A stretch of DNA of 46,937 nucleotides from a virus, in IMG/VR virus record IMGVR_UViG_3300036760_000182, positions 1-46,937 of that record; one strand, 5' to 3'. The position numbers were made by a program, and so were the translations under genes. Positions 2,729 to 38,488 of the stretch are shown here, piece by piece. The first letter of the stretch is position 1; each line of letters begins with the position of its first letter. The notes beneath the pieces were generated by a model. That model was not told the DNA's origin, ran no database searches, and was given only the letters and a program-made list of their open reading frames with translations.

Positions 2729-4423
2729 ATGCCAATCTCTCTAACTAATGGTATTGAAAGTAAAGATCCCGGTAATGGCTTTCAAGAAGATTATATTCGT
2801 GACAAGAATATTAAACCACATGCTGTTCAAGAACAATTACTAACTCTTCCAGATCAAATCTTTGAGGCTCTTTATGGAGGAGCCGCCTACGGTGGGAAGA
2901 GCTGGATATTAACATTACTTCCACTATTTAGAGGTTTTTATAAGTTCAGAGGATATAAAGGAATTATCTTCCGTCGTAAGTTTCCAGATCTCGAACGTGA
3001 GATTATACGTCTAAGTAAAGAATACTATCCAAAAACAGGAGCTAAATATAATGAACAAAAGCATAGCTGGGAATGGCCAGAGTTTAATTCCTATCAGGAT
3101 TTTGGTCATGTACAGCATGATTCTGATATTGTTATGTATGACTCTTCCCAGTATAACTATTGTGCATTCGACGAGCTTACTCATTTTTCTGCCCATCCTT
3201 ATCATTATATGGTTGGTAGCCGCGTTCGTCCTAGTAGTTCATTTAATGTAGCTATTGCTCGAAGTGGAACTAATCCTGGTGGGATTGGACAGACATTTGT
3301 TTATAATAGATTTGTACGACCATATGAAGATGGTTTAAAAGTTATACGTGATACATCTACTGGACTTCTCCGTATATTTATACCCGCGAAAGCGGAGGAT
3401 AATCCTTATGGAATGGAATATGATCCATTATATGTTAAGAAACTTGAGATACTAAAAGCAGTTTCTGAGGCTGAGTATAGAGCAAAGAGATATGGAGATT
3501 GGCACGCCTATAAAGGATCTGTATTTACAACTTTTAGACCTATACGATTTCCGGGCGAGCCAGATAGTGCATTGCATGTTATTAAACGGTTTCAGATACC
3601 TGAATTATGGCCTCGTATTCTGTCAATAGATTGGGGTAAAAAAGCAATGTGTTATGCAATGTGGGGAGCCGTTGCTCCAAATCATAAAGTTTATATTTAC
3701 AGAGAGCGTGCTTGGTATGGAAGAGATATCCCTTATTGGGCTAGTGAAATAAGATTGATTCATAATGAGAATAATGAAACTCCAGTTCATACAGTATTAT
3801 GTGGTAGTGCATGGCAGAGTAGAGGTGGAGAGTTAATTGCTGATGAGTTCCAGAAGTATTCAGACTTGGTTCCAAGTAGCTCAGAAAACACTCCGGGAAG
3901 CCGCGTAGCAGGCTTGCAATTGATTCATGATTTTCTAAGATGGGAGAAGAAGACTTCTCTCATATCAAAAGAGAAATTTTATGATATGCAAATAGCTCAA
4001 GAGATATATAGAAATTATGGACCAGCAGCTCTAGAGAATTATAAGAAGAAATTTTATGATGAGTCTGATGAAGATAATCTTCCTATTTTACAAATTTTTG
4101 AGAATTGTAAAATTCTAATTGATACAATTCCAATGTGTATATATGATGATAAAAAGATTGAAGACATTGCTGAATTTGAAGGAGATGATCCAATAGATGA
4201 TCTTCGTTACTTTTGTAAAGCAGCTAAGAGATTCATTGCTGGAGAAATAGGTCATCTTGATATTGCCTCTAAGAAACAAGAGGCTATTGATCATTTACAA
4301 GTGAGTGGAGATATGACTTCTTTTTATCGCCAAATGGAGATGATAGAGAAACAAGATATGACAACATTAAATGATTGCATTCCTGTCAGTAGAAGAAGTC
4401 GCTTTGCAAGGTTAAGACACTAA
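2729..4423 (+). CDS. terL: Terminase large subunit
   Basis: 564 residues. The ATPase domain has a Walker A-like GGAAYGGKS (50-58) and Walker B CAFDE (145-149). The C-terminal nuclease domain starts with ILSIDWG near residue 298, where the Asp is expected to bind metal. The protein drives packaging of DNA through the portal. Its last codons carry the first copy of a 15-bp repeat whose second copy follows the homing endonuclease gene. Removing the insert would change only the last residues, from SRFARLRH to SRFARRMH, so the present C-terminus seems to be a by-product of the insertion. Confidence 0.95.
   Translation: MPISLTNGIESKDPGNGFQEDYIRDKNIKPHAVQEQLLTLPDQIFEALYGGAAYGGKSWILTLLPLFRGFYKFRGYKGIIFRRKFPDLEREIIRLSKEYYPKTGAKYNEQKHSWEWPEFNSYQDFGHVQHDSDIVMYDSSQYNYCAFDELTHFSAHPYHYMVGSRVRPSSSFNVAIARSGTNPGGIGQTFVYNRFVRPYEDGLKVIRDTSTGLLRIFIPAKAEDNPYGMEYDPLYVKKLEILKAVSEAEYRAKRYGDWHAYKGSVFTTFRPIRFPGEPDSALHVIKRFQIPELWPRILSIDWGKKAMCYAMWGAVAPNHKVYIYRERAWYGRDIPYWASEIRLIHNENNETPVHTVLCGSAWQSRGGELIADEFQKYSDLVPSSSENTPGSRVAGLQLIHDFLRWEKKTSLISKEKFYDMQIAQEIYRNYGPAALENYKKKFYDESDEDNLPILQIFENCKILIDTIPMCIYDDKKIEDIAEFEGDDPIDDLRYFCKAAKRFIAGEIGHLDIASKKQEAIDHLQVSGDMTSFYRQMEMIEKQDMTTLNDCIPVSRRSRFARLRH
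4397..4411. repeat. Left copy of 15-bp direct repeat around endonuclease gene 1
   Basis: AGTCGCTTTGCAAGG occurs here inside the last terminase codons and again at 4985-4999. The distance is 588 bp, a multiple of three. Its AAGG lies 11 nt before the endonuclease ATG and may serve as its ribosome binding site. Confidence 0.9.
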
Positions 4424-4986
4424 TGAAAGCTATAAAAAATATTTCTTGGTTGGCAGGTATATTAGAGGGAGAAGGTTCATTTTCTTGTGATGATAATGGA
4501 ACTAATGCTGTAATAAAAGTAGGTATGACTGATAAAGATGTTATTGAGAAAGTAGCTATGGTAGTAAATTATAATGGTAAAATATGTGAACAAGCGCGTG
4601 AAGGATTTAAAATTATGTATATAGTTCAATTATATGGTAATGAAGCTATTCAATGGATGATGACCATTTATAGTTTAATGGGAATTAGGAGAAAAGAGAA
4701 AATTAAATCTATTTTAATTTTATGGAGAGAATATGAAAGAAAATATAGAACAGTTTGTTTACGTGGTCATGAAGTAGTTGGAGATAATGCATACTTAGCT
4801 CCAGGAGACACTAATAATTTTAAATGTAAAGAATGCTTAAGCATTGCTAGCAAGAAAGCTTATGCAAAACATATTTCTACTGAAGGAAAGCAAAAGTCTA
4901 TTGAGAAGATGTTAGCAAAATTACATAATATTAGTATAAATGAAGCTAGAAAACTTATTGAAAATGATAAAAATAATGTTCATTAG
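4423..4986 (+). CDS. LAGLIDADG homing endonuclease 1, free-standing
   Basis: 187 residues. The N-terminus ISWLAGILEGEGSF (about 7-20) is the LAGLIDADG helix with the acidic residue of the active site; only one clear copy is present, so it would work as a homodimer. The C-terminus has a zinc module CLRGH ... CKEC followed by basic helices. The ATG overlaps the terminase stop (TAATG). It lies between the two copies of a 15-bp repeat, so it is an intergenic insertion, not an intron gene. It is more AT-rich than the terminase gene. Confidence 0.9.
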   Translation: MKAIKNISWLAGILEGEGSFSCDDNGTNAVIKVGMTDKDVIEKVAMVVNYNGKICEQAREGFKIMYIVQLYGNEAIQWMMTIYSLMGIRRKEKIKSILILWREYERKYRTVCLRGHEVVGDNAYLAPGDTNNFKCKECLSIASKKAYAKHISTEGKQKSIEKMLAKLHNISINEARKLIENDKNNVH

Positions 4987-6154: not shown

Positions 6155-6313
6155 ATGCCAGCCGTTAGCGGTCGTCAATATAAATTCATGCAAGCTATGA
6201 GGAGTGGAGCTAAGCCATATGGTGGTGGTGTTGGACCTAGTAAATCTGTTGCTGAAGAATTTATTCACAAGACACCTAAAAAGAAAAGATCAATGTTCAC
6301 GAAGAAAAAATAA
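6155..6313 (+). CDS. 52-residue DUF3008-like phage protein
   Basis: Short gene starting MPAVSGRQYKFMQAM. The pattern MPAxSxxQxxFM is typical of a small phage family (DUF3008-like) found near portal genes. The C-terminus is Lys-rich (PKKKRSMFTKKK). The stop TAA overlaps the ATG of endonuclease gene 2. Before insertion of that gene it would have been immediately upstream of the portal gene. Confidence 0.7.
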   Translation: MPAVSGRQYKFMQAMRSGAKPYGGGVGPSKSVAEEFIHKTPKKKRSMFTKKK

Positions 6314-6825
6314 TGCCTACAGAAATTGAGATTGCTTGGTTGGCAGGTCTACTAGAAGGTGAGGGATGCTTTATGATTCAGCATCATGCCTCACCTAGTA
6401 TTCAGTTATCTATGACTGATTTAGATGTTGTAATTAAAGCAGCTAAAATTATGGAAATTAGTTTAGATAGAATTCATCCTAAAAGAGATAATCAACCTAA
6501 TCATAAACCATGTTATGTTCTCAGATGTGATGGTCCAGAGGCTTTTATTTGGATGAGAGCTATTAGACCACATATGGGAGATAGGAGGGGAGCTAAAATA
6601 GATGAAGTTATATCTACTGTAAAAGCTGCTCGTCCTCATATCGATAAAGGGAGAGATGTTTGTCGTAAAGGTCATAGTATTAAATATTCATATGAATACT
6701 ATGTTGGTTCAAGTGGTCAAAGACAATGTAAGAGATGTCTAGGAGTTACCCCAAGACAAAAGACTATAATTAAAAGTAATAATATAAAATTAATCAGTCC
6801 TTTTAATAAGGGAAAGATTGCATAA
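6313..6825 (+). CDS. LAGLIDADG homing endonuclease 2, free-standing
   Basis: 170 residues. IAWLAGLLEGEGCF (about 7-20) is the LAGLIDADG helix. The C-terminal zinc module is CRKGHSIKYSYEYY ... CKRC. Similar in layout to the gene at 4423. It overlaps both neighbours by one base (TAATG on each side) and lies just before the portal gene. No flanking duplication was found here. Confidence 0.9.
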   Translation: MPTEIEIAWLAGLLEGEGCFMIQHHASPSIQLSMTDLDVVIKAAKIMEISLDRIHPKRDNQPNHKPCYVLRCDGPEAFIWMRAIRPHMGDRRGAKIDEVISTVKAARPHIDKGRDVCRKGHSIKYSYEYYVGSSGQRQCKRCLGVTPRQKTIIKSNNIKLISPFNKGKIA

Positions 6826-11958: not shown

Positions 11959-12420
11959 ATGGTAACTATTAGAGAAATAGCTTGGGCCGCTGGAGTTTAC
12001 GAAGGAGAGGGTAGCTTCAGCGGTGACCGAGTAGTAATAGTTCAGAAAGATTCTTGGATATTATATAGATTAATTAAAATATTCAAATTTGGAAGTGTAA
12101 GATTACATGGTGATAACTGTCAGAAATGGTGCGTCTCTGGTGAAGATGCTCGTCAATTTCTCCTAACTATATTTACTGAGCTATCTCCCAGAAGAAAAGC
12201 TGAGATACTGGAGCATAAAGTATTCTTTATTGATAGTAAATTTAAACAGCAAAGAGTATGTAGAAATGGCCATATTAAGACCGAAGAAAATACTAGGCGC
12301 AAGTATAATCATCGCAGAAAAGATTGGGATGTTATCTGTTTGGATTGTCAAACAGATAGGCTCAGAAGAGCTTGGAGAGTGAAGAAAATGATAATCCAAA
12401 GGAGAACATCTAATGTCTGA
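11959..12420 (+). CDS. LAGLIDADG homing endonuclease 3, free-standing
   Basis: 153 residues. EIAWAAGVYEGEGSF near the N-terminus is a diverged LAGLIDADG helix. The C-terminal zinc module is CRNGH ... CLDC, followed by RLRRAWRVKK. It is smaller than the other two and lies between the capsid gene and a small virion gene, with an 8-nt overlap into the latter. No good Shine-Dalgarno is seen before its ATG. Confidence 0.87.
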   Translation: MVTIREIAWAAGVYEGEGSFSGDRVVIVQKDSWILYRLIKIFKFGSVRLHGDNCQKWCVSGEDARQFLLTIFTELSPRRKAEILEHKVFFIDSKFKQQRVCRNGHIKTEENTRRKYNHRRKDWDVICLDCQTDRLRRAWRVKKMIIQRRTSNV

Positions 12421-31630: not shown

Positions 31631-31839
31631 ACTAACTCCAGCAATTCAAATGGCAGAAATCCTCCATTAATTGCATCTAAAACAACCTCCACTCTTCTAC
31701 CATGATTATAATCAACATTAAACCAATCAATTTCAGTTTTAGAATCTAGTTCAATTAAATACTCTGTACCTATTAGAGCTTCTACAATTTCAATTCCATC
31801 TAAACTTTTAGTCTTCAATCTAGCCTTGACAATCATCAC
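31627..31839 (-). CDS. Small protein, unknown
   Basis: 70 residues, mixed beta/alpha (MMIVKARLKTKSLDGIEIVE). It overlaps the polymerase gene stop. No motif recognised. Confidence 0.6.
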   Translation of the reverse strand: MMIVKARLKTKSLDGIEIVEALIGTEYLIELDSKTEIDWFNVDYNHGRRVEVVLDAINGGFLPFELLELV

Positions 31840-34313
31840 ATTTTCACCTTCTCAAAACTAGCATAATTAGTTCTTGACATTTCAATATCACAAGGAATAA
31901 CTAGTTTAATATTTCTTTTCAATGTGCAATATGTAGAAAAATCAACTGGAGTCTCCATATGTTTCTTCATAAGCTTTGCGTAGACCTCCCAATTGTTTTC
32001 AGGTGCTTGCAGATATAAAGCATCATGCTTTTCTTCTGCCCACATCACCTGAGTGTTACCATTTAATTCTTCGTCAATCTTCAAACCAGCTCCCTGTATT
32101 ATATGTGCTACTGTTCTCTGTGGAATATTTGCGTAGGCTTCTTTGTAAATATCATCCATACGTCCATTAAATATTCTAACACCACCCATAGGATCTATTA
32201 GTACTCTTGAACTATCAATTGCCTCTTTAATATCTCTATGAAAAACATCTCTTATTTTTGGAGAAGCTTTATGAAAAATGTCAAGCATCTGCCCTGCCCT
32301 CCACTCTGATATATCCATAGGAATATCATACTTCTGAGCATTTGTATTGAAAGTAATCATAAATGTATGCTTTCCAGTATCATAACTTGCTGCATATCTA
32401 ACAGTTTTACCTGTATATCGCTCTGGGCCATCTTTAGGAAGAAAATCTACAATAGGATGATGAAAGTCAACTCCTAATTCTAAATTGCTTGTATAACCAA
32501 ATAGAAGAGCGGCTGTACGTCTATGAACATCAATTTTATCAAATGCTTCTAGAAGCTCCCAATCTTCACTTAGAACTGCGACTATACGAGCTTCTGCTTG
32601 ACTTGCATCTGCCTGGATAATAACTCTTCCTTCATCAGCAATGAACATACTTTTGATATCTTTACCAAGTCGTCCATGCGCAGAGATAGTGTGGTCTGCC
32701 AAGCCGATTTTCTTAGGTCTAAGCGGTTTCTTAAGAATTCCAGTAGAGCTTCTGCAAGTTTCAGTTGCTGATATGTTGTAAGCTGATTTGCATCGTCCAT
32801 CATAGTCAGGGCAGAAAGAGATTTGACGACTCTTTTGATCTCTAATTCTGCGTTCTTCAAGGACTTCATTCAGAATTTCCTTTTGCTCCTTCTTTTTGCA
32901 AGCTCCTAATATAGCAACAATAGAGTCTTCACTTGTAGGATCTCTTTTTCTTACCTTAAATTTCATGATTTTATATAACAACTCAAACATCTGTGGATAT
33001 GATTTAACATTTACTTCCTGTCCGATCTTTTCTATTAATCTTTCATGTACAACACGCTGCATCTCTGTATATTTTATCTTCAATTCTTTTTGTCTAGCTA
33101 AATCGACACGTTTTCCTGTAGTCTCTAATTTTAGATAAAACTTATGTTTCTTCATCATGTAGTCATAATAATACTCTTTTAAAGGAACATTAAATTTCTC
33201 TGCCATCTCTAATAAATCTATTTCTTGCGCTTCATCTACTTCAAATTCGACAGCGCAATCTCTAGCATTGTATTTAAGTAACTGATCAACTTTAACTTTT
33301 CCAAGCTTGAATTCTTTCCCTTCATCCTTATAATATGGTTCTCTCGTCCATAATGAACTGACAACACATAATCGTTTGTCTGGAAGTTCTGGGAAGAGAA
33401 CTCTAGTTTTAATAAGGGTGTCTGAATAGACATTTGGAGTTTCAAATCCGATTAAACCTAGTTTATATTCGTCGTATTTAAAATTATGTCCAATTACTCG
33501 AAGCCGTCGTAATTGCTGGTCAATTATCCTCCAACATTCATCCAACTCATTATCACCCATATCAGTAATAACATTAGTACCAATATGATGAAGGAGAGGG
33601 ACACTGATAGCATGATGTCTGTTGAAAGCAAATCCAATACATACAGGAACGCAATTAATGGACTCAATATCAACTGCTGCTTTCTCACATGCCTCATATT
33701 CTCTGAAGAATCGGTGCAGATCTAAACTGTTGTGTGCTATTGATAATGTCCTCTCAGGTAATATTAGTGAAGATGTTAAAGACTCCTCAGCGGCTCTGAT
33801 AATATCAGCTTCAATTAACTTTGTATAGACCCAACTTAGGCCACCTTTTGTTTCTCCTTCTTCACCCCAAGAATGTGAAAACAGAGCGGCTGGATGTAAA
33901 GTTGGAACTACCTTAAAAACACCATTACGATCCGTTAATATTGAACCACGATAATTTAATATTCCAGAAACATCACATACGGCCTGAAGAGCTAAATCCC
34001 CTACTGCTAATATACAGTTAGGATGGAGTTTATTAATTTCATTGTCCCATAACTCCTGCATCGACTGCCCAATGTCAACTCCTATAAGATGGAGCTTTTT
34101 GAGATCATTAAGAGGAGGGCGATACTTAATTACATTCGTAATATATGTATCAGAGCGTCTAATACCTGCCTTAAATAAATAATCATCAAGCATCTTTCCG
34201 GTGGGACCAACAAATGGAATACCTTGTTCATCTTCATATTTGCCTGGAGCTTCTCCAATAATCATTAATTTTGGCTCAACGGAGCCAATTCCACCTACAT
34301 ATTGAGAGCTCAT
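31836..34313 (-). CDS. DNA polymerase I with N-terminal uracil-DNA glycosylase domain
   Basis: 825 residues. The N-terminal UDG family 4/5-like domain has IIGEAPGKYEDEQGIPFVG (18-36) and TLHPAALF. The 3'-5' exonuclease domain follows with AVDIES (Exo I), GHNFKYDEY (Exo II) and YNARDCAVE (Exo III). The polymerase domain has motif A DASQAEAR, motif B TGKTVRYAASYDTG and motif C HDA. It would replicate the genome with proofreading. The UDG part lacks the N-terminal CxxC pair that helps hold an iron-sulphur cluster in family 4, so it may only bind uracil or serve as a structural domain. Confidence 0.9.
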   Translation of the reverse strand: MSSQYVGGIGSVEPKLMIIGEAPGKYEDEQGIPFVGPTGKMLDDYLFKAGIRRSDTYITNVIKYRPPLNDLKKLHLIGVDIGQSMQELWDNEINKLHPNCILAVGDLALQAVCDVSGILNYRGSILTDRNGVFKVVPTLHPAALFSHSWGEEGETKGGLSWVYTKLIEADIIRAAEESLTSSLILPERTLSIAHNSLDLHRFFREYEACEKAAVDIESINCVPVCIGFAFNRHHAISVPLLHHIGTNVITDMGDNELDECWRIIDQQLRRLRVIGHNFKYDEYKLGLIGFETPNVYSDTLIKTRVLFPELPDKRLCVVSSLWTREPYYKDEGKEFKLGKVKVDQLLKYNARDCAVEFEVDEAQEIDLLEMAEKFNVPLKEYYYDYMMKKHKFYLKLETTGKRVDLARQKELKIKYTEMQRVVHERLIEKIGQEVNVKSYPQMFELLYKIMKFKVRKRDPTSEDSIVAILGACKKKEQKEILNEVLEERRIRDQKSRQISFCPDYDGRCKSAYNISATETCRSSTGILKKPLRPKKIGLADHTISAHGRLGKDIKSMFIADEGRVIIQADASQAEARIVAVLSEDWELLEAFDKIDVHRRTAALLFGYTSNLELGVDFHHPIVDFLPKDGPERYTGKTVRYAASYDTGKHTFMITFNTNAQKYDIPMDISEWRAGQMLDIFHKASPKIRDVFHRDIKEAIDSSRVLIDPMGGVRIFNGRMDDIYKEAYANIPQRTVAHIIQGAGLKIDEELNGNTQVMWAEEKHDALYLQAPENNWEVYAKLMKKHMETPVDFSTYCTLKRNIKLVIPCDIEMSRTNYASFEKVKM

Positions 34314-34598: not shown

Positions 34599-34778
34599 CT
34601 AATTTGAAATTTCATCATAATGTAAAAGTATATGTTTAACTCTTTCAATCTTCTCTATTCTAGAAAGAAAAATGTTTATTTCTTCTTTGATTTTGTAATT
34701 CGTTTTATCAAGATCACCTTCTTTATTATTTTCTACATCTAAACTGAATTTAATCTTGACTAAAGTATATTCAGTCAC
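34599..34778 (-). CDS. 59-residue protein, GTG start
   Basis: Short gene coupled to its upstream neighbour by GTGA, with AGGAGG a few bases before the start. Sequence begins MTEYTLVKIKFSLDVENN and continues as a charged helix. The strong ribosome binding site makes it very likely real. Confidence 0.7.
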   Translation of the reverse strand: MTEYTLVKIKFSLDVENNKEGDLDKTNYKIKEEINIFLSRIEKIERVKHILLHYDEISN

Positions 34779-35077
34779 TCAACCTCCTCTAACTCTTGCT
34801 CTCTTTTCTTTTTATGAATAAATTCTAATGCTTCATAACCATAATTAAATCTCTCCAACTGTTTCTCATGAGTTTTCAGCCATCTAACTATTAATAAATC
34901 TTCACTTATTCCTCCTAGACTACGCCTGAGAGATTTAGCTGTATCCTGAACACGCCACTTATCATGAGATTGAAGTTTAGAGAGATGAAATTTATGTGTC
35001 TCCTTTGCTTTCTCAAGCCATTTCTGCTGCATTAATTCTCCAAAAAGATTACTAGGAGTTGGCTCGCTAAAGGCCAC
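34775..35077 (-). CDS. Small helical protein, unknown
   Basis: 100 residues, basic, helical, with LRRSLGGISEDLLIVRWLKTHE. Follows the Acb2-like gene after a 64-bp spacer. Conserved style; function unknown. Confidence 0.68.
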   Translation of the reverse strand: MAFSEPTPSNLFGELMQQKWLEKAKETHKFHLSKLQSHDKWRVQDTAKSLRRSLGGISEDLLIVRWLKTHEKQLERFNYGYEALEFIHKKKREQELEEVE

Positions 35078-35141
35078 CTAAAGCGGGCTTTATTCGTGAG
35101 TTAAAAGGCAACTCCTTATTTCCGCCCATCCTAGCAAACTG
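35078..35141 (-). other. Spacer with weak stem-loop
   Basis: Largest gap in the lower minus operon. GAGTT pairs with AACTC (35098-35102 and 35110-35114) and GGGC with GCCC outside it (35085-35088, 35124-35127). No T-run follows. Could be a processing site after the Acb2-like gene. Confidence 0.35.
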
Positions 35142-35357
35142 CTATCCTACTTCAGATTTAGGGTCATTAAATACAACAGCTTTGATAGCCCACATAGCGG
35201 CTGTTTCTAGTTCTGTTAATGCAATACTTTTCTGTCTACTGTTTGGGCAATTGTCTTCAACTACTTTAGCAATATCAGAAAATTTCTCGCGCAGATAACT
35301 AATTCTTTTAAATCCATCATCGCTAGGCTTGTGATAAGCGAAAGGCTTATCTATCAT
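35142..35357 (-). CDS. Acb2-like anti-CBASS cyclic-nucleotide sponge
   Basis: 71 residues. The C-terminal helix-hairpin SRQKSIALTELETAAMWAIKAV (about 40-61) fits the Acb2/Tad1 hairpin signature, in which sREkSlAlTkLEeAmMWAnaAI is conserved; the N-terminal AYHKPSDDGFKRISYLREKF also fits. Acb2 proteins form hexamers that bind cyclic di- and trinucleotides and so block CBASS defence. The length is as expected. Coupled to the gene upstream by ATGA, so it is co-expressed with replication genes. The W and LE residues are present, and Arg replaces nothing essential that I can see. Confidence 0.75.
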   Translation of the reverse strand: MIDKPFAYHKPSDDGFKRISYLREKFSDIAKVVEDNCPNSRQKSIALTELETAAMWAIKAVVFNDPKSEVG

Positions 35358-35734
35358 GACATCGGCTTGAAATCAACTACGTCATTAAATTCGTTACCTT
35401 TGTTACTCTTACCACGCTTGGTATAAATCATCAGTTTATGTCCAACAGTCTGCTCAAATAGCTGAGTTGAAAGTTCATATCCCTTAACTGGATCATATGG
35501 AAAAGCTAGTGTCTTCCACAGAGACTTACCAAAGCCTAGAGCTTTCTCATTAAACAGCTTCTGACAGATAACTCCTTTACCAGGACCATCAATAATCTTA
35601 AAATAGAATAAACAGTTAGTAGACTGGTCTGTCTCTGCCTCTTTCTCCTTATATTCTACGATTTCAGATGGATGCCAGGTGGTTTCCACTAGGTCTCCAC
35701 GCTTAAGGTCGTCGGGGGTTAAAATTGCTCTCAT
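35354..35734 (-). CDS. Probable ssDNA-binding protein, DUF669-like
   Basis: 126 residues. KRGDLVETTWHPSEIVEY, LFYFKIIDGPGKGVICQKLF and GKSNKGNEFNDVVDFKP match the strand pattern of phage DUF669-type proteins that lie next to Sak4-like ATPases. It would coat ssDNA in annealing or replication. Separated from the Sak4-like gene only by an inserted HNH gene. OB fold inferred. Confidence 0.5.
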   Translation of the reverse strand: MRAILTPDDLKRGDLVETTWHPSEIVEYKEKEAETDQSTNCLFYFKIIDGPGKGVICQKLFNEKALGFGKSLWKTLAFPYDPVKGYELSTQLFEQTVGHKLMIYTKRGKSNKGNEFNDVVDFKPMS

Positions 35735-36204
35735 GGTTTTTGCCTTCTTTTTTGGTTGATTGTGTTTTTGTGTTTATTGTAGTGTTTGTTTCTAGCTATC
35801 CTAGCACATTCTCTACACTTTAATCTCTTACTAGTATCTAATCTATGTCTTCTTGTGATATATCCATGTATTTTTAAGGAATGACCACTTTTGCAATATT
35901 TTCTAGATTCTCTATAATCTCTACCATTATCAGATTGAGTACCTACATACAAACAGTTTGGGTTCCAACAATTTCTATATTTACATATTAATTTATGTAA
36001 TGCATTTAGTATAGGACTATCTAAATCTAATTCTAAATGAATATAAGCAGATAACCTATGCACTCCATAATGATTACCATCTTCTCTACTACCTACCCAT
36101 AGCATTCCATATCCTTGACTAGTTCTTCCCATCCATAACCAATGACCATCTTCGCTTATGATCGTATTGGCCCACAATCTGGATAGAACTTCTTCTTTAT
36201 TCAA
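35731..36204 (-). CDS. HNH homing endonuclease 1, free-standing
   Basis: 157 residues, TTG start right after the Sak4-like stop. NUMOD-like start GHWLWMGRTSQGYGMLWVG, then HRLSAYIHLE, ALHKLICKYRNCWNPNCLYVGTQSDN which is the HNH core (His, His, Asn and a Cys site). The C-terminus has the zinc module CKSGH ... CREC shared with the LAGLIDADG genes of this genome. It overlaps the next gene by ATGA. Inserted between the ATPase gene and the ssDNA-binding gene. Confidence 0.88.
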   Translation of the reverse strand: MNKEEVLSRLWANTIISEDGHWLWMGRTSQGYGMLWVGSREDGNHYGVHRLSAYIHLELDLDSPILNALHKLICKYRNCWNPNCLYVGTQSDNGRDYRESRKYCKSGHSLKIHGYITRRHRLDTSKRLKCRECARIARNKHYNKHKNTINQKRRQKP

Positions 36205-36205
36205 T

Positions 36206-37066
36206 CTACGTTTTCCAGGTTTGTGTTGTTGGTTGAGTGAATGGATTTGCTATTCTAGCAGCTAATTCTTCTTCAGTTAATTCTTTCTTAGGTTCAATAT
36301 CTCTACTCTTGTCAGCAAGTTCTTTCCATACAGTATAGAATAGCTTATTAGTAATATCAAATTCTTTAGGAATATCTAATGCAGTTTTAGCAAAATCATC
36401 TCCAACCATATCAGTTAATACTATTCTTCTATTTGTATTATCATTATAATCGACTCTACGTGCAAAGTGATATATTTCATTAAAATAGCCTGGGACTATT
36501 GCTCCAACTTTCTGACCATAACTCACAATAGATGTAACTTTACTTACAATCATACTACTTCCAGAGCCAGACATGCTTAAACTAGGAAGTGGGTGAGCTG
36601 TTAGGATTATATGACATGGAAGCATCTTCATTATATCTAATGCTTGACTAACTAATGAAGTCTCCACTTTATAGGCGTCAAAATCTGGAATAAGATTTGG
36701 TTCATTTGATTTTCTTACTTTAGATCCTCTAAATCCTAATGACCAATTTATAGCACTGGCTGTGAGACTCGTTACTGAGTCTGTTATAATTGCTGTATAA
36801 CGACAATCTTTAGTAAATCCTATTAGTTTATTAAGGAACTCATTCGCATTGTGACTAGAATATGTATCATAATTAACATTATCTAAAAGTTCCGGACAAT
36901 ATTTCTTAAAATATGTTAACACTGGAAGCATCCTACCATCAAAATCAAATACATATATTGGACCCTCTACTGCAAATGTACAAGCACTAATAGTTTTACC
37001 CATACCATTAGCTCCTTTAAGGAGCATTGATATATTCTTACTTGGTATTAATTGACTGAGCTTCAT
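36206..37066 (-). CDS. Sak4-like RecA-fold ATPase
   Basis: 286 residues. Walker A is GANGMGKT (18-25), Walker B is AIITDS (about 93-98), with DFDGR after the first helix as in AAA_24 proteins. Sak4 and related ATPases assist annealing and recombination of phage ssDNA, usually beside an SSB, which matches the gene at 35354. The C-terminus is NPFTQPTTQTWKT. Good ribosome binding site AGGAGGAAGAA before ATG. Confidence 0.8.
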   Translation of the reverse strand: MKLSQLIPSKNISMLLKGANGMGKTISACTFAVEGPIYVFDFDGRMLPVLTYFKKYCPELLDNVNYDTYSSHNANEFLNKLIGFTKDCRYTAIITDSVTSLTASAINWSLGFRGSKVRKSNEPNLIPDFDAYKVETSLVSQALDIMKMLPCHIILTAHPLPSLSMSGSGSSMIVSKVTSIVSYGQKVGAIVPGYFNEIYHFARRVDYNDNTNRRIVLTDMVGDDFAKTALDIPKEFDITNKLFYTVWKELADKSRDIEPKKELTEEELAARIANPFTQPTTQTWKT

Positions 37067-37494
37067 TTCTTCCTCCTTCTCTCATTGTAACAGTTAGCAC
37101 AATATCTTGTCCATGTAGTCTTACTAGTATTTCTATTTATTTGTTTATGTTTTCTGTATGGAAATTTACATTTAGGACAAACTTCTTTACTTGCATTATA
37201 ATGTGTTCCAGCCTTAATAGAATCATATGTGTTGTCTGAATCAGAGCCAGGTATAATATGTTCTGGATTAAAACAAGAACCATTATTACATTTGTGTCTT
37301 GCTATTATTTTCTTATCATCATAATTTATATCACTCCACAAACACATAACTAATCTACTCAATAAGAATCTATTACCATTTATTTTTATTCGTATATTAT
37401 GACAGGTTTCAGGAATATAATTTGATATCCAACAACCATTAGAATTTATAGTTTTAGGAATTAAATCAATAAATTCTTTAGTTATTAATATCAT
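37063..37494 (-). CDS. HNH homing endonuclease 2, free-standing
   Basis: 143 residues. GCWISNYIPE, FLLSRLVMCLW and IARHKCNNGSCFNPEHIIPGSDSDN give the HNH core. The C-terminal zinc module is CPKC ... CANC. It lies between the poly-Asp gene and the Sak4-like gene. The sequence GAGGAAGAAAT (ribosome binding site plus start) occurs just before it and again at its end, before the Sak4-like start. Confidence 0.87.
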   Translation of the reverse strand: MILITKEFIDLIPKTINSNGCWISNYIPETCHNIRIKINGNRFLLSRLVMCLWSDINYDDKKIIARHKCNNGSCFNPEHIIPGSDSDNTYDSIKAGTHYNASKEVCPKCKFPYRKHKQINRNTSKTTWTRYCANCYNERRRKK

Positions 37495-37513: not shown

Positions 37514-37681
37514 CTAGCTTGGAAATTCGTCTGGTTCTCTTATATCTCTTGCACTATCTTCTCCTTTTTCATAATCATTTTCGTCTTCATCATCTTCATC
37601 GTCATCATTTTCATCATTTTCATCTTCCAAATCTTCATCATCATCGTCATCATCATCATCGTCATCATCAGAAATTCTCAT
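37514..37681 (-). CDS. Hyperacidic 55-residue poly-Asp protein
   Basis: Starts MRIS followed by 11 Asp residues, then Glu/Asp/Asn repeats and the end REPDEFPS. 35 of 55 residues are Asp or Glu (24 and 11), with only four Lys/Arg. The ATG overlaps the stop of the previous gene (ATGA) and GAGGAAGAA is at the right distance. A DNA mimic or an acidic tail that binds SSB partners is possible; no family known to me. The GAT repeats make the length prone to change. Confidence 0.7.
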   Translation of the reverse strand: MRISDDDDDDDDDDDEDLEDENDENDDDEDDEDENDYEKGEDSARDIREPDEFPS

Positions 37682-37692: not shown

Positions 37693-38118
37693 TTCTTGTT
37701 TTTGTTTTTGATGGATTGTTTGTTCAAGACGTTCTGATAGTGAAAGTTCTGCTGGTTTATCACTGTACATTCCTACTAATCCATTAATAATAGAGTCCTT
37801 CATATATTCTCCCATATCTCTAGTATCAGTTTCTTTTTTAGGCTTATGGCAATTATTGCAATGAGGTTTTGATAAACGAATAGAATATTCATTCATTACA
37901 AAAGATTCCCCACAACGCCAACAGATTGACCTTTTTCCTAATACTAGAGAGATGTTAGTTTTGAATGCACAGTCTGGTAGGGCGCAGAAGAATATATCAT
38001 TCCCAGACTTATATCTTAATCTTTTTAATTTATGCACATGACTGATTTTTGGCATTGTGGCGCTCATTCTGCTTTTCGTTTTTGCATCTTCTACAGTATC
38101 TAGTTCCTCTTTTTTCAT
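37678..38118 (-). CDS. Zinc-ribbon protein, unknown
   Basis: 146 residues from the ATG at 38118, which has GGGAG 8 nt upstream; the upstream ATG at 38136 has no such signal. It contains FFCALPDC, ICWRCGESF and HCNNC, six cysteines able to bind zinc, and an acidic Gln/Glu tail. It overlaps the end of HNH gene 3 by 89 nt in another frame. Perhaps a transcription or replication cofactor; unknown. Confidence 0.65.
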   Translation of the reverse strand: MKKEELDTVEDAKTKSRMSATMPKISHVHKLKRLRYKSGNDIFFCALPDCAFKTNISLVLGKRSICWRCGESFVMNEYSIRLSKPHCNNCHKPKKETDTRDMGEYMKDSIINGLVGMYSDKPAELSLSERLEQTIHQKQKQEEEEI

Positions 38119-38488
38119 GTCTATATCTCCCACCACATTTAGGACAATTAATCTTTGCTATATTTCTATGGGTTTTGGTTATAACTAAATCCTTGGCATT
38201 ATCAGTTTGTGTACCAACGTAAACATGCTCTGAATTAAAACACGCTCTATTATTACAAAATGTTTTATGGTTAACTTGTACGCTATCATCATTTATATCT
38301 AAACCTAAATAAACTGCTGCTGATACTCTATGGAGATATATCCTTTTTCTATTTATTGTAACTTCTCCATACCCATTGTTTAAATGTCCAACATATAGCC
38401 AACATCCAATTTCATTAGTAGTTCTTGGTAGACTTAATATAAATTCTAGGGTTATTGCATTGTTTACTCTTTTTCTTTTATATTTCAT
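38030..38488 (-). CDS. HNH homing endonuclease 3, free-standing
   Basis: 152 residues. GCWLYVGHLNNGYGEVTI, HRVSAAVYLGLD and VNHKTFCNNRACFNSEHVYVGTQTDN form the HNH core. The C-terminal zinc module CPKCGGRYRHEKRG ... CRRC lies partly in the overlap with the next gene. Weak ribosome binding site. It follows a 149-bp structured spacer. Confidence 0.87.
   Translation of the reverse strand: MKYKRKRVNNAITLEFILSLPRTTNEIGCWLYVGHLNNGYGEVTINRKRIYLHRVSAAVYLGLDINDDSVQVNHKTFCNNRACFNSEHVYVGTQTDNAKDLVITKTHRNIAKINCPKCGGRYRHEKRGTRYCRRCKNEKQNERHNAKNQSCA

Follow-up and report, generated by a model that had tools for sequence, protein, structure and literature searches.

The virus record analysed here (IMG/VR; the window is its whole stretch of 46,937 bases) carries a small gene whose most likely role is counter-defence by means of a nucleotide sponge, probably of the Acb2 type. 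The gene is a new branch of the known Acb2 family, conserved and hitherto unannotated, and through it that family of sponges now takes in many uncultured phages.

35142..35357, minus strand: acb2-like gene; 71-aa Acb2/Tad1 hairpin protein and candidate nucleotide sponge (PF24729, AlphaFold2 hairpin, Foldseek)

The open reading frame starts with ATG, comprises 71 codons at exactly 35142-35357 and encodes MIDKPFAYHKPSDDGFKRISYLREKFSDIAKVVEDNCPNSRQKSIALTELETAAMWAIKAVVFNDPKSEVG. The helix-hairpin peptide singled out by the first-pass annotation, which named no strand, is SRQKSIALTELETAAMWA and was located at residues 40-57. Relatives of the protein number 98 in viral contigs, with identities of 57-76% for the best 80 of the 98, and a core of 64 residues is free of indels across 81 sequences. 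The median dN/dS was 0.10 and the maximum 0.30 in 44 close pairs. Because of the family matches, the indel-free core and the low dN/dS, the frame is, as judged from these sequence comparisons, a real gene under purifying selection. That it could be a decayed or non-functional relic is hardly credible. A broken copy does occupy the same slot in one related contig (L144), and natural resistance to Panoptes is seen in T4-like phages whose acb1 or acb2 has lost its function (PMC12657230); against this stand the intact frame, the core and dN/dS just described, and the presence of all pocket-core residues.

The assignment to the Acb2 family originates from profile searches. PF24729 (Acb2_Tad1_hairpin) matches residues 7-61 with an E-value of 1.3e-14 and 54.6 bits, twice its curated cut-off of 27 bits, and phrog_1454, a family of unknown function, matches at 9.2e-15. 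T4 Vs.4, a biochemically proven Acb2 that binds cGAMP (PMC10097602), scores 71 bits on the same Pfam model. With the single protein as query against the PDB, phmmer gave one meaningful match, 9ptq (E 0.0067), the next rows (E 1.2) being chance, while a profile built from a diverse alignment (A2) retrieved 9ptq at 1.5e-9 and Vs.4 at 0.009. Tad1 chains were found too, over the SR..A.T..E..MW stretch. PADLOC and NCBIfam yielded no match. Acb2 sponges were already known from T4 and PaP2, and the homologue 9ptq was solved recently; phage announcements have begun to annotate putative Acb2 genes as well (PMC13348362). The branch described here, type A, has invariant ends of its own, IDKP[FY]AYHKPS and AIKAVVFNDPxS.

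Structure prediction points in the same direction. The AlphaFold2 monomer, based on 60 aligned relatives, has predicted helices at residues 13-36 and 41-63 that form a two-helix hairpin with a mean pLDDT of 89.7. Sequence conservation extends to residues 1-7 and 64-71, which are modelled with lower certainty and may be ordered only within an oligomer. In a Foldseek search of 350,542 PDB chains, Vs.4 in complex with cGAMP (7uq2) took ranks 1 and 2 and Acb2 (8h2x, 8h2j) ranks 3 and 5; the probabilities of these Acb2 chains were 0.82-0.99 and their E-values weak (0.07-1.4), because a hairpin of 71 residues has little shape information. VIA-align also ranked Vs.4 first, at Z 7.0 versus 6.9 for the next entry, with unrelated helical hairpins inseparable, and its rank was dropped as proof of an Acb2 fold since it did not set Vs.4 apart from generic hairpins. 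The Acb2/Tad1 relation proposed in the first-pass annotation, together with an HMM search as the way to find it wanting, is thus borne out by the 54.6-bit Pfam match, the hairpin fold and the solved Acb2 chains at the top of the structural ranking. We consider it quite probable that the protein acts as a sponge of the Acb2 type on a nucleotide signal of some kind, and we infer both the ligand and the counter-defence effect; the label 'anti-CBASS', which names a ligand and a biological effect, is accordingly a putative one.

Comparison with known proteins places the window protein close to, and apart from, each of the solved sponges. T4 Vs.4 (7UQ2), the top structural match, has the PF24729 hairpin in common with it; Y8, T68, M75, W76, A66 and A77 of Vs.4 are identical at the aligned positions, and K23 and R79 are conservatively replaced by R23 and K59. 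The two are nevertheless only 26% identical and differ in length (88 versus 71 aa), in the inserted interhelix residues of Vs.4, which the window protein lacks, in the replacement of F82 by V62 and of H11 by P11, and in genomic setting. Pseudomonas phage PaP2 Acb2 (8H2J, 8H2X) shares the hairpin fold, the conserved Tyr, the Lys/Arg and the C-terminal basic residue, and likewise has no Phe at the F82 position, but it is about 20% identical, carries MM in place of the MW motif and has a longer loop. The closest solved sequence, 'Acb2 homolog 43' (9PTQ), for which our literature search found no describing paper, belongs to the same length class and has the same RxKSxxxTxLExA motif, but lacks both the Tyr of FAYH (FDTH instead) and the MW motif. 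PF24729 proteins of Paenibacillus larvae phages (Sitara, Lily and others) and of Bacillota prophages are 41-46% identical to the window protein, share its FxYHxP and SRxKSxAxT motifs and look like the type-B proteins that related viral contigs carry in the equivalent slot, but they sit in a temperate-type setting with recombinase, HicAB and ArpU neighbours. The Paenibacillus larvae phage proteins are annotated as hypothetical or as 'phosphomannomutase'; the latter label, carried by PF24729-type proteins in Paenibacillus phage records such as KT361655.1 and MG727702.1 and in that of Brevibacillus phage NC_028805.1, seems to be an error passed on between annotations. A further arrangement was observed in Sulfitobacter phage phiCB2047-B (HQ317387.2), where L085 3593-4156 encodes 188 aa with a RyR domain (PF02026, E 3.3e-10) and a C-terminal PF24729 hairpin (E 5.4e-8); its neighbour is a thymidylate synthase gene, and the product may be a two-domain nucleotide sponge.

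The functional sites of Vs.4 allow the putative ligand pocket to be examined residue by residue. In Vs.4, cGAMP is contacted by Y8, H11, K23, R79 and F82, the hexamer interface involves L29, A66, A73 and A77, the changes T12I, S74N and A77I cause loss of function, and F82A lowers affinity more than 25-fold (PMC10097602); T68M is said to weaken binding (PMC12657230). The pocket residues correspond in the window protein to Y8, P11, R23, K59 and V62 (for Y8, H11, K23, R79 and F82, respectively), the interface residues to I29, A46, A53 and A57 (for L29, A66, A73 and A77), and the other sites to S12, V33, T48 and A54 (for T12, F33, T68 and S74). Ten of these 13 mapped sites (Y8, P11, S12, R23, I29, V33, A46, T48, A53, A54, A57, K59 and V62) fall among the 22 columns invariant in 60 sequences, compared with 4.0 expected (hypergeometric p 2.2e-4). 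The pocket core Y8, R23 and K59 is present and invariant in the 60 sequences, and the small interface residues and the helix cap are kept (A46, A53, A57 and S12, all except A53 invariant). In its N-terminal half the Vs.4 alignment has no gaps, but it scores low there and rests on weak sequence similarity, and the equivalence of Y8 and R23 to their Vs.4 counterparts is accordingly strong in position, not proven. The other refuting condition named in the first-pass annotation, a model without the ligand pocket, was assessed on the monomer, which keeps the pocket-core residues.

The two replaced contacts raise a concrete question of ligand specificity, namely what binds when F82 and H11 of Vs.4 are Val and Pro. 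The replacement of F82, which stacks on the base in Vs.4, and of H11 tells against the Acb2-type reading, and specificity may differ; the objection is softened by PaP2 Acb2, which has Ala and Leu at these two positions and was solved with cGAMP, so that neither residue defines the family. It is possible, though we would not favour it, that the same fold and sponge mechanism serve a ligand other than a CBASS cyclic dinucleotide, be it a cyclic trinucleotide, a type III CRISPR messenger or, with a Tad1-like target, the ADP-ribose messenger of Thoeris; this reading overlaps with that of an Acb2-type sponge because the latter leaves the ligand open. Consistent with another ligand are V62 and P11, the distinct invariant ends of type A, the scarcity of SMODS synthases in genomes carrying distant relatives (2/32), the second Acb2 pocket, which binds cyclic trinucleotides (review PMC12043709), and the helical hairpin shared with Tad1, as seen in PF24729 and in the matching Tad1 chains. 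Arguing the other way, the dinucleotide-pocket residues Y8, R23 and K59 are kept and invariant, ThsB_TIR is likewise rare in the carriers of relatives (4/32), and the N-terminal beta-sheet domain of Tad1, which serves gcADPR, is missing from the AlphaFold2 model, where PF24729 begins at residue 7 of a protein of 71 aa that is hairpin only.

Taken as an Acb2-type sponge, the predicted two-helix hairpin would probably assemble into a hexamer, by analogy with T4 Vs.4 and PaP2 Acb2. Paired protomers would hold a cyclic oligonucleotide between Tyr8, Arg23 and Lys59, the equivalents of Vs.4 Y8, K23 and R79, and the sequestered molecule would be kept from the host effector, so that abortive infection would not be triggered. 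The ligand class could be a cyclic dinucleotide, a cyclic trinucleotide or other. The gene would act as an accessory counter-defence gene in a variable slot directly after an ssb-like gene, presumably coupled in translation to that member of the replication operon.

Searches aimed at the host gave distant matches at most. Two peptide patterns retrieved no close relative from 84,980 bacterial or archaeal genomes, and the major capsid protein had no match among 50,697 phage records; the matches of terminase and PolA to cultured phages lie below about 31% identity and involve phages of unrelated hosts. The wider alignment of the acb2-like protein contains 48 loci, mostly of Bacillota, which at 29-46% identity are too distant to name a host. 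The first-pass annotation had taken the gene to imply CBASS in the host, and this is not supported. Only 2 of the 32 bacterial genomes carrying distant relatives encode a SMODS CD-NTase, and 4 encode a ThsB-type TIR protein, in what is a coarse test with one family per defence and no matched background, in which the carrier need not be the sole host of the phage. The scarcity of the SMODS synthase also tells somewhat against the Acb2-type reading.

The gene lies in a replication operon, the relevant features of which are as follows.

35354..35357, minus strand: ATGA overlap of the acb2-like start and the ssb-like stop; likely translational coupling, no clear Shine-Dalgarno (sequence read directly)
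35354..35734, minus strand: ssb-like gene, 126 aa, OB-fold, DUF669-like (below the Pfam cut-off), PrgE-like (AlphaFold2, Foldseek)
35033..35353, minus strand: cargo slot from ssb to the 34775 gene, holding in the window the acb2-like gene and a 109-nt spacer (synteny of related phages)
34775..35032, minus strand: conserved small gene downstream, 85 aa from an ATG at 35032 as homologues suggest, the listed frame starting with GTG at 35077 (homologues in all PolA-anchored loci)
36206..37066, minus strand: Sak4-like AAA ATPase/ssDNA annealing protein gene, same operon (PF13479 E 1.1e-9; phrog_124 E 2.7e-15)
31836..34313, minus strand: fusion of UDG superfamily and family A DNA polymerase, same operon; synteny anchor (PF00476 E 2.6e-28, PF03167 E 1e-24)

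A PD-(D/E)XK nuclease, a SNF2-type helicase and a DUF3987 protein are encoded in the same operon, and a Pfam search of the 34775 gene gave no match. The ssb-like product matches DUF669 at E 0.0084, below the cut-off, and its AlphaFold2 model (pLDDT 82.8) has PrgE of pCF10 as its top Foldseek match (8s4s/8s4t, a DNA-bound structure included; E 9e-5 to 1.5e-4, probability 1.00), which makes 'ssDNA-binding gene' a reasonable name for a gene with this modelled OB-fold. The proposed coupling to a gene of that type agrees with the junction, where the acb2-like ATG overlaps the TGA of the 35354-35734 frame; because this ATGA junction lacks a clear Shine-Dalgarno, translation of the two genes is likely coupled. 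Early production of the sponge, proposed from the same arrangement, fits the replication operon in the window and is weakly indicated there; it is at best local, because the position of the gene is not conserved, and it would not hold for relatives beside a terminase or capsid gene. Promoter-like sites (86 versus 69.2 in shuffles, s.d. 8.7) and terminator-like sites (8 versus 8.0) show a modest excess and no excess, respectively, and were dropped as proof of early expression.

Several other frames of the window are worth recording. In the 31836-34313 gene, the uracil-DNA-glycosylase-superfamily domain lies N-terminal to the family A polymerase. Three related HNH-like frames (35731-36204, 37063-37494 and 38030-38488) are interspersed between replication genes and two LAGLIDADG-like frames (4423-4986 and 6313-6825) lie amid structural genes, all with Pfam scores below cut-off; 11959-12420 resembles the latter two and has no Pfam match. 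A 55-aa frame at 37514-37681 consists mostly of Asp and Glu, encoded by GAT/GAC runs, and its coding status is doubtful.

Location in the operon could also mean that the protein is a replication accessory rather than a sponge, for instance a partner of SSB that acts together with the ssb-like and Sak4-like proteins. The start-stop overlap with the ssb-like gene is consistent with such a role, and among the 80 viral loci that carry a close relative the gene adjoins ssb in 5 (L003, L020, L023, L061 and L081) and has sak4 or polA close by in another 16. However, it is near terL in 26 loci and near a capsid gene in 8 (together 34/80), elsewhere in 9 and without any window-like marker in 16, these classes being approximate as they are based on distances to homologues of the window's genes. 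Two contigs (L138 and L139) with an ssb 94% identical to that of the window have no acb2-like gene in the slot, other contigs have either of two dissimilar Acb2 types or a broken copy there, and the invariant residues map to the pocket and interface of Acb2. We therefore regard a replication role as very improbable and rejected it, since the position and the presence of the gene both vary.

The content of the slot among near relatives was compared at 27 loci anchored on the polymerase rather than on the sponge (66-84% identical). The slot holds a type-A acb2 in L003, L155 and L158, a type-B acb2 in L150 and L156 (35-38% identical to the window protein, PF24729 62 bits), a broken type-B remnant with internal stops in L144, a tRNA-Leu(TAA) in L138, L139, L142, L147 and L151, and alongside acb2 in L150, and a spacer only in L143 and L162. 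In L156, ssb is 93% and the polymerase 83% identical to those of the window, compared with 38% for Acb2. Type-B genes also occur directly upstream of ssb (L148 and L160), and acb2 genes downstream of polA (L153 and L159). Among the nine polymerase-anchored records longer than 42 kb, a PF24729 match is present in six (in one as a fragment only) and absent from three. The acb2-like gene is thus accessory, phage-encoded and patchily present among near relatives, and the comparison suggests that the space between ssb and the next gene is an accessory cargo slot in which the gene is gained, swapped and lost, a pattern that supports counter-defence and speaks against a replication role. Such turnover would be expected where CBASS favours retention of a sponge and Panoptes favours its loss (PMC12657218, PMC12657230). 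As an observation the slot is new but modest, and its variants offer a natural series for studying the gain, swap and loss of sponges.

A more elaborate proposal combines two parts: that the type-A branch (IDKP[FY]AYHKPS ... AMWAIKAVVFNDPxS), common in uncultured phages and absent from the sequenced bacterial genomes searched, is a sponge for a nucleotide signal unlike those of T4 and PaP2 Acb2, and that the slot is a counter-defence swapping site whose content is moved by gene conversion beside a homing endonuclease. The interchangeable Acb2 types, the tRNA-Leu and the nearby HNH endonuclease gene can be cited for the swapping site, and we consider the two parts together unlikely, if conceivable. 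The window itself has no tRNA, and in other records, such as L003, L148 and L156, the tRNA-Leu(TAA) sits outside the slot. In L156, an HNH-like frame (2739-3852) lies between ssb and the type-B acb2 and ends in DIADFKPMS, while the ssb protein ends in VADFKPMS; the shared C-terminus would fit a duplication of the 3' end of ssb when the endonuclease gene was inserted there.
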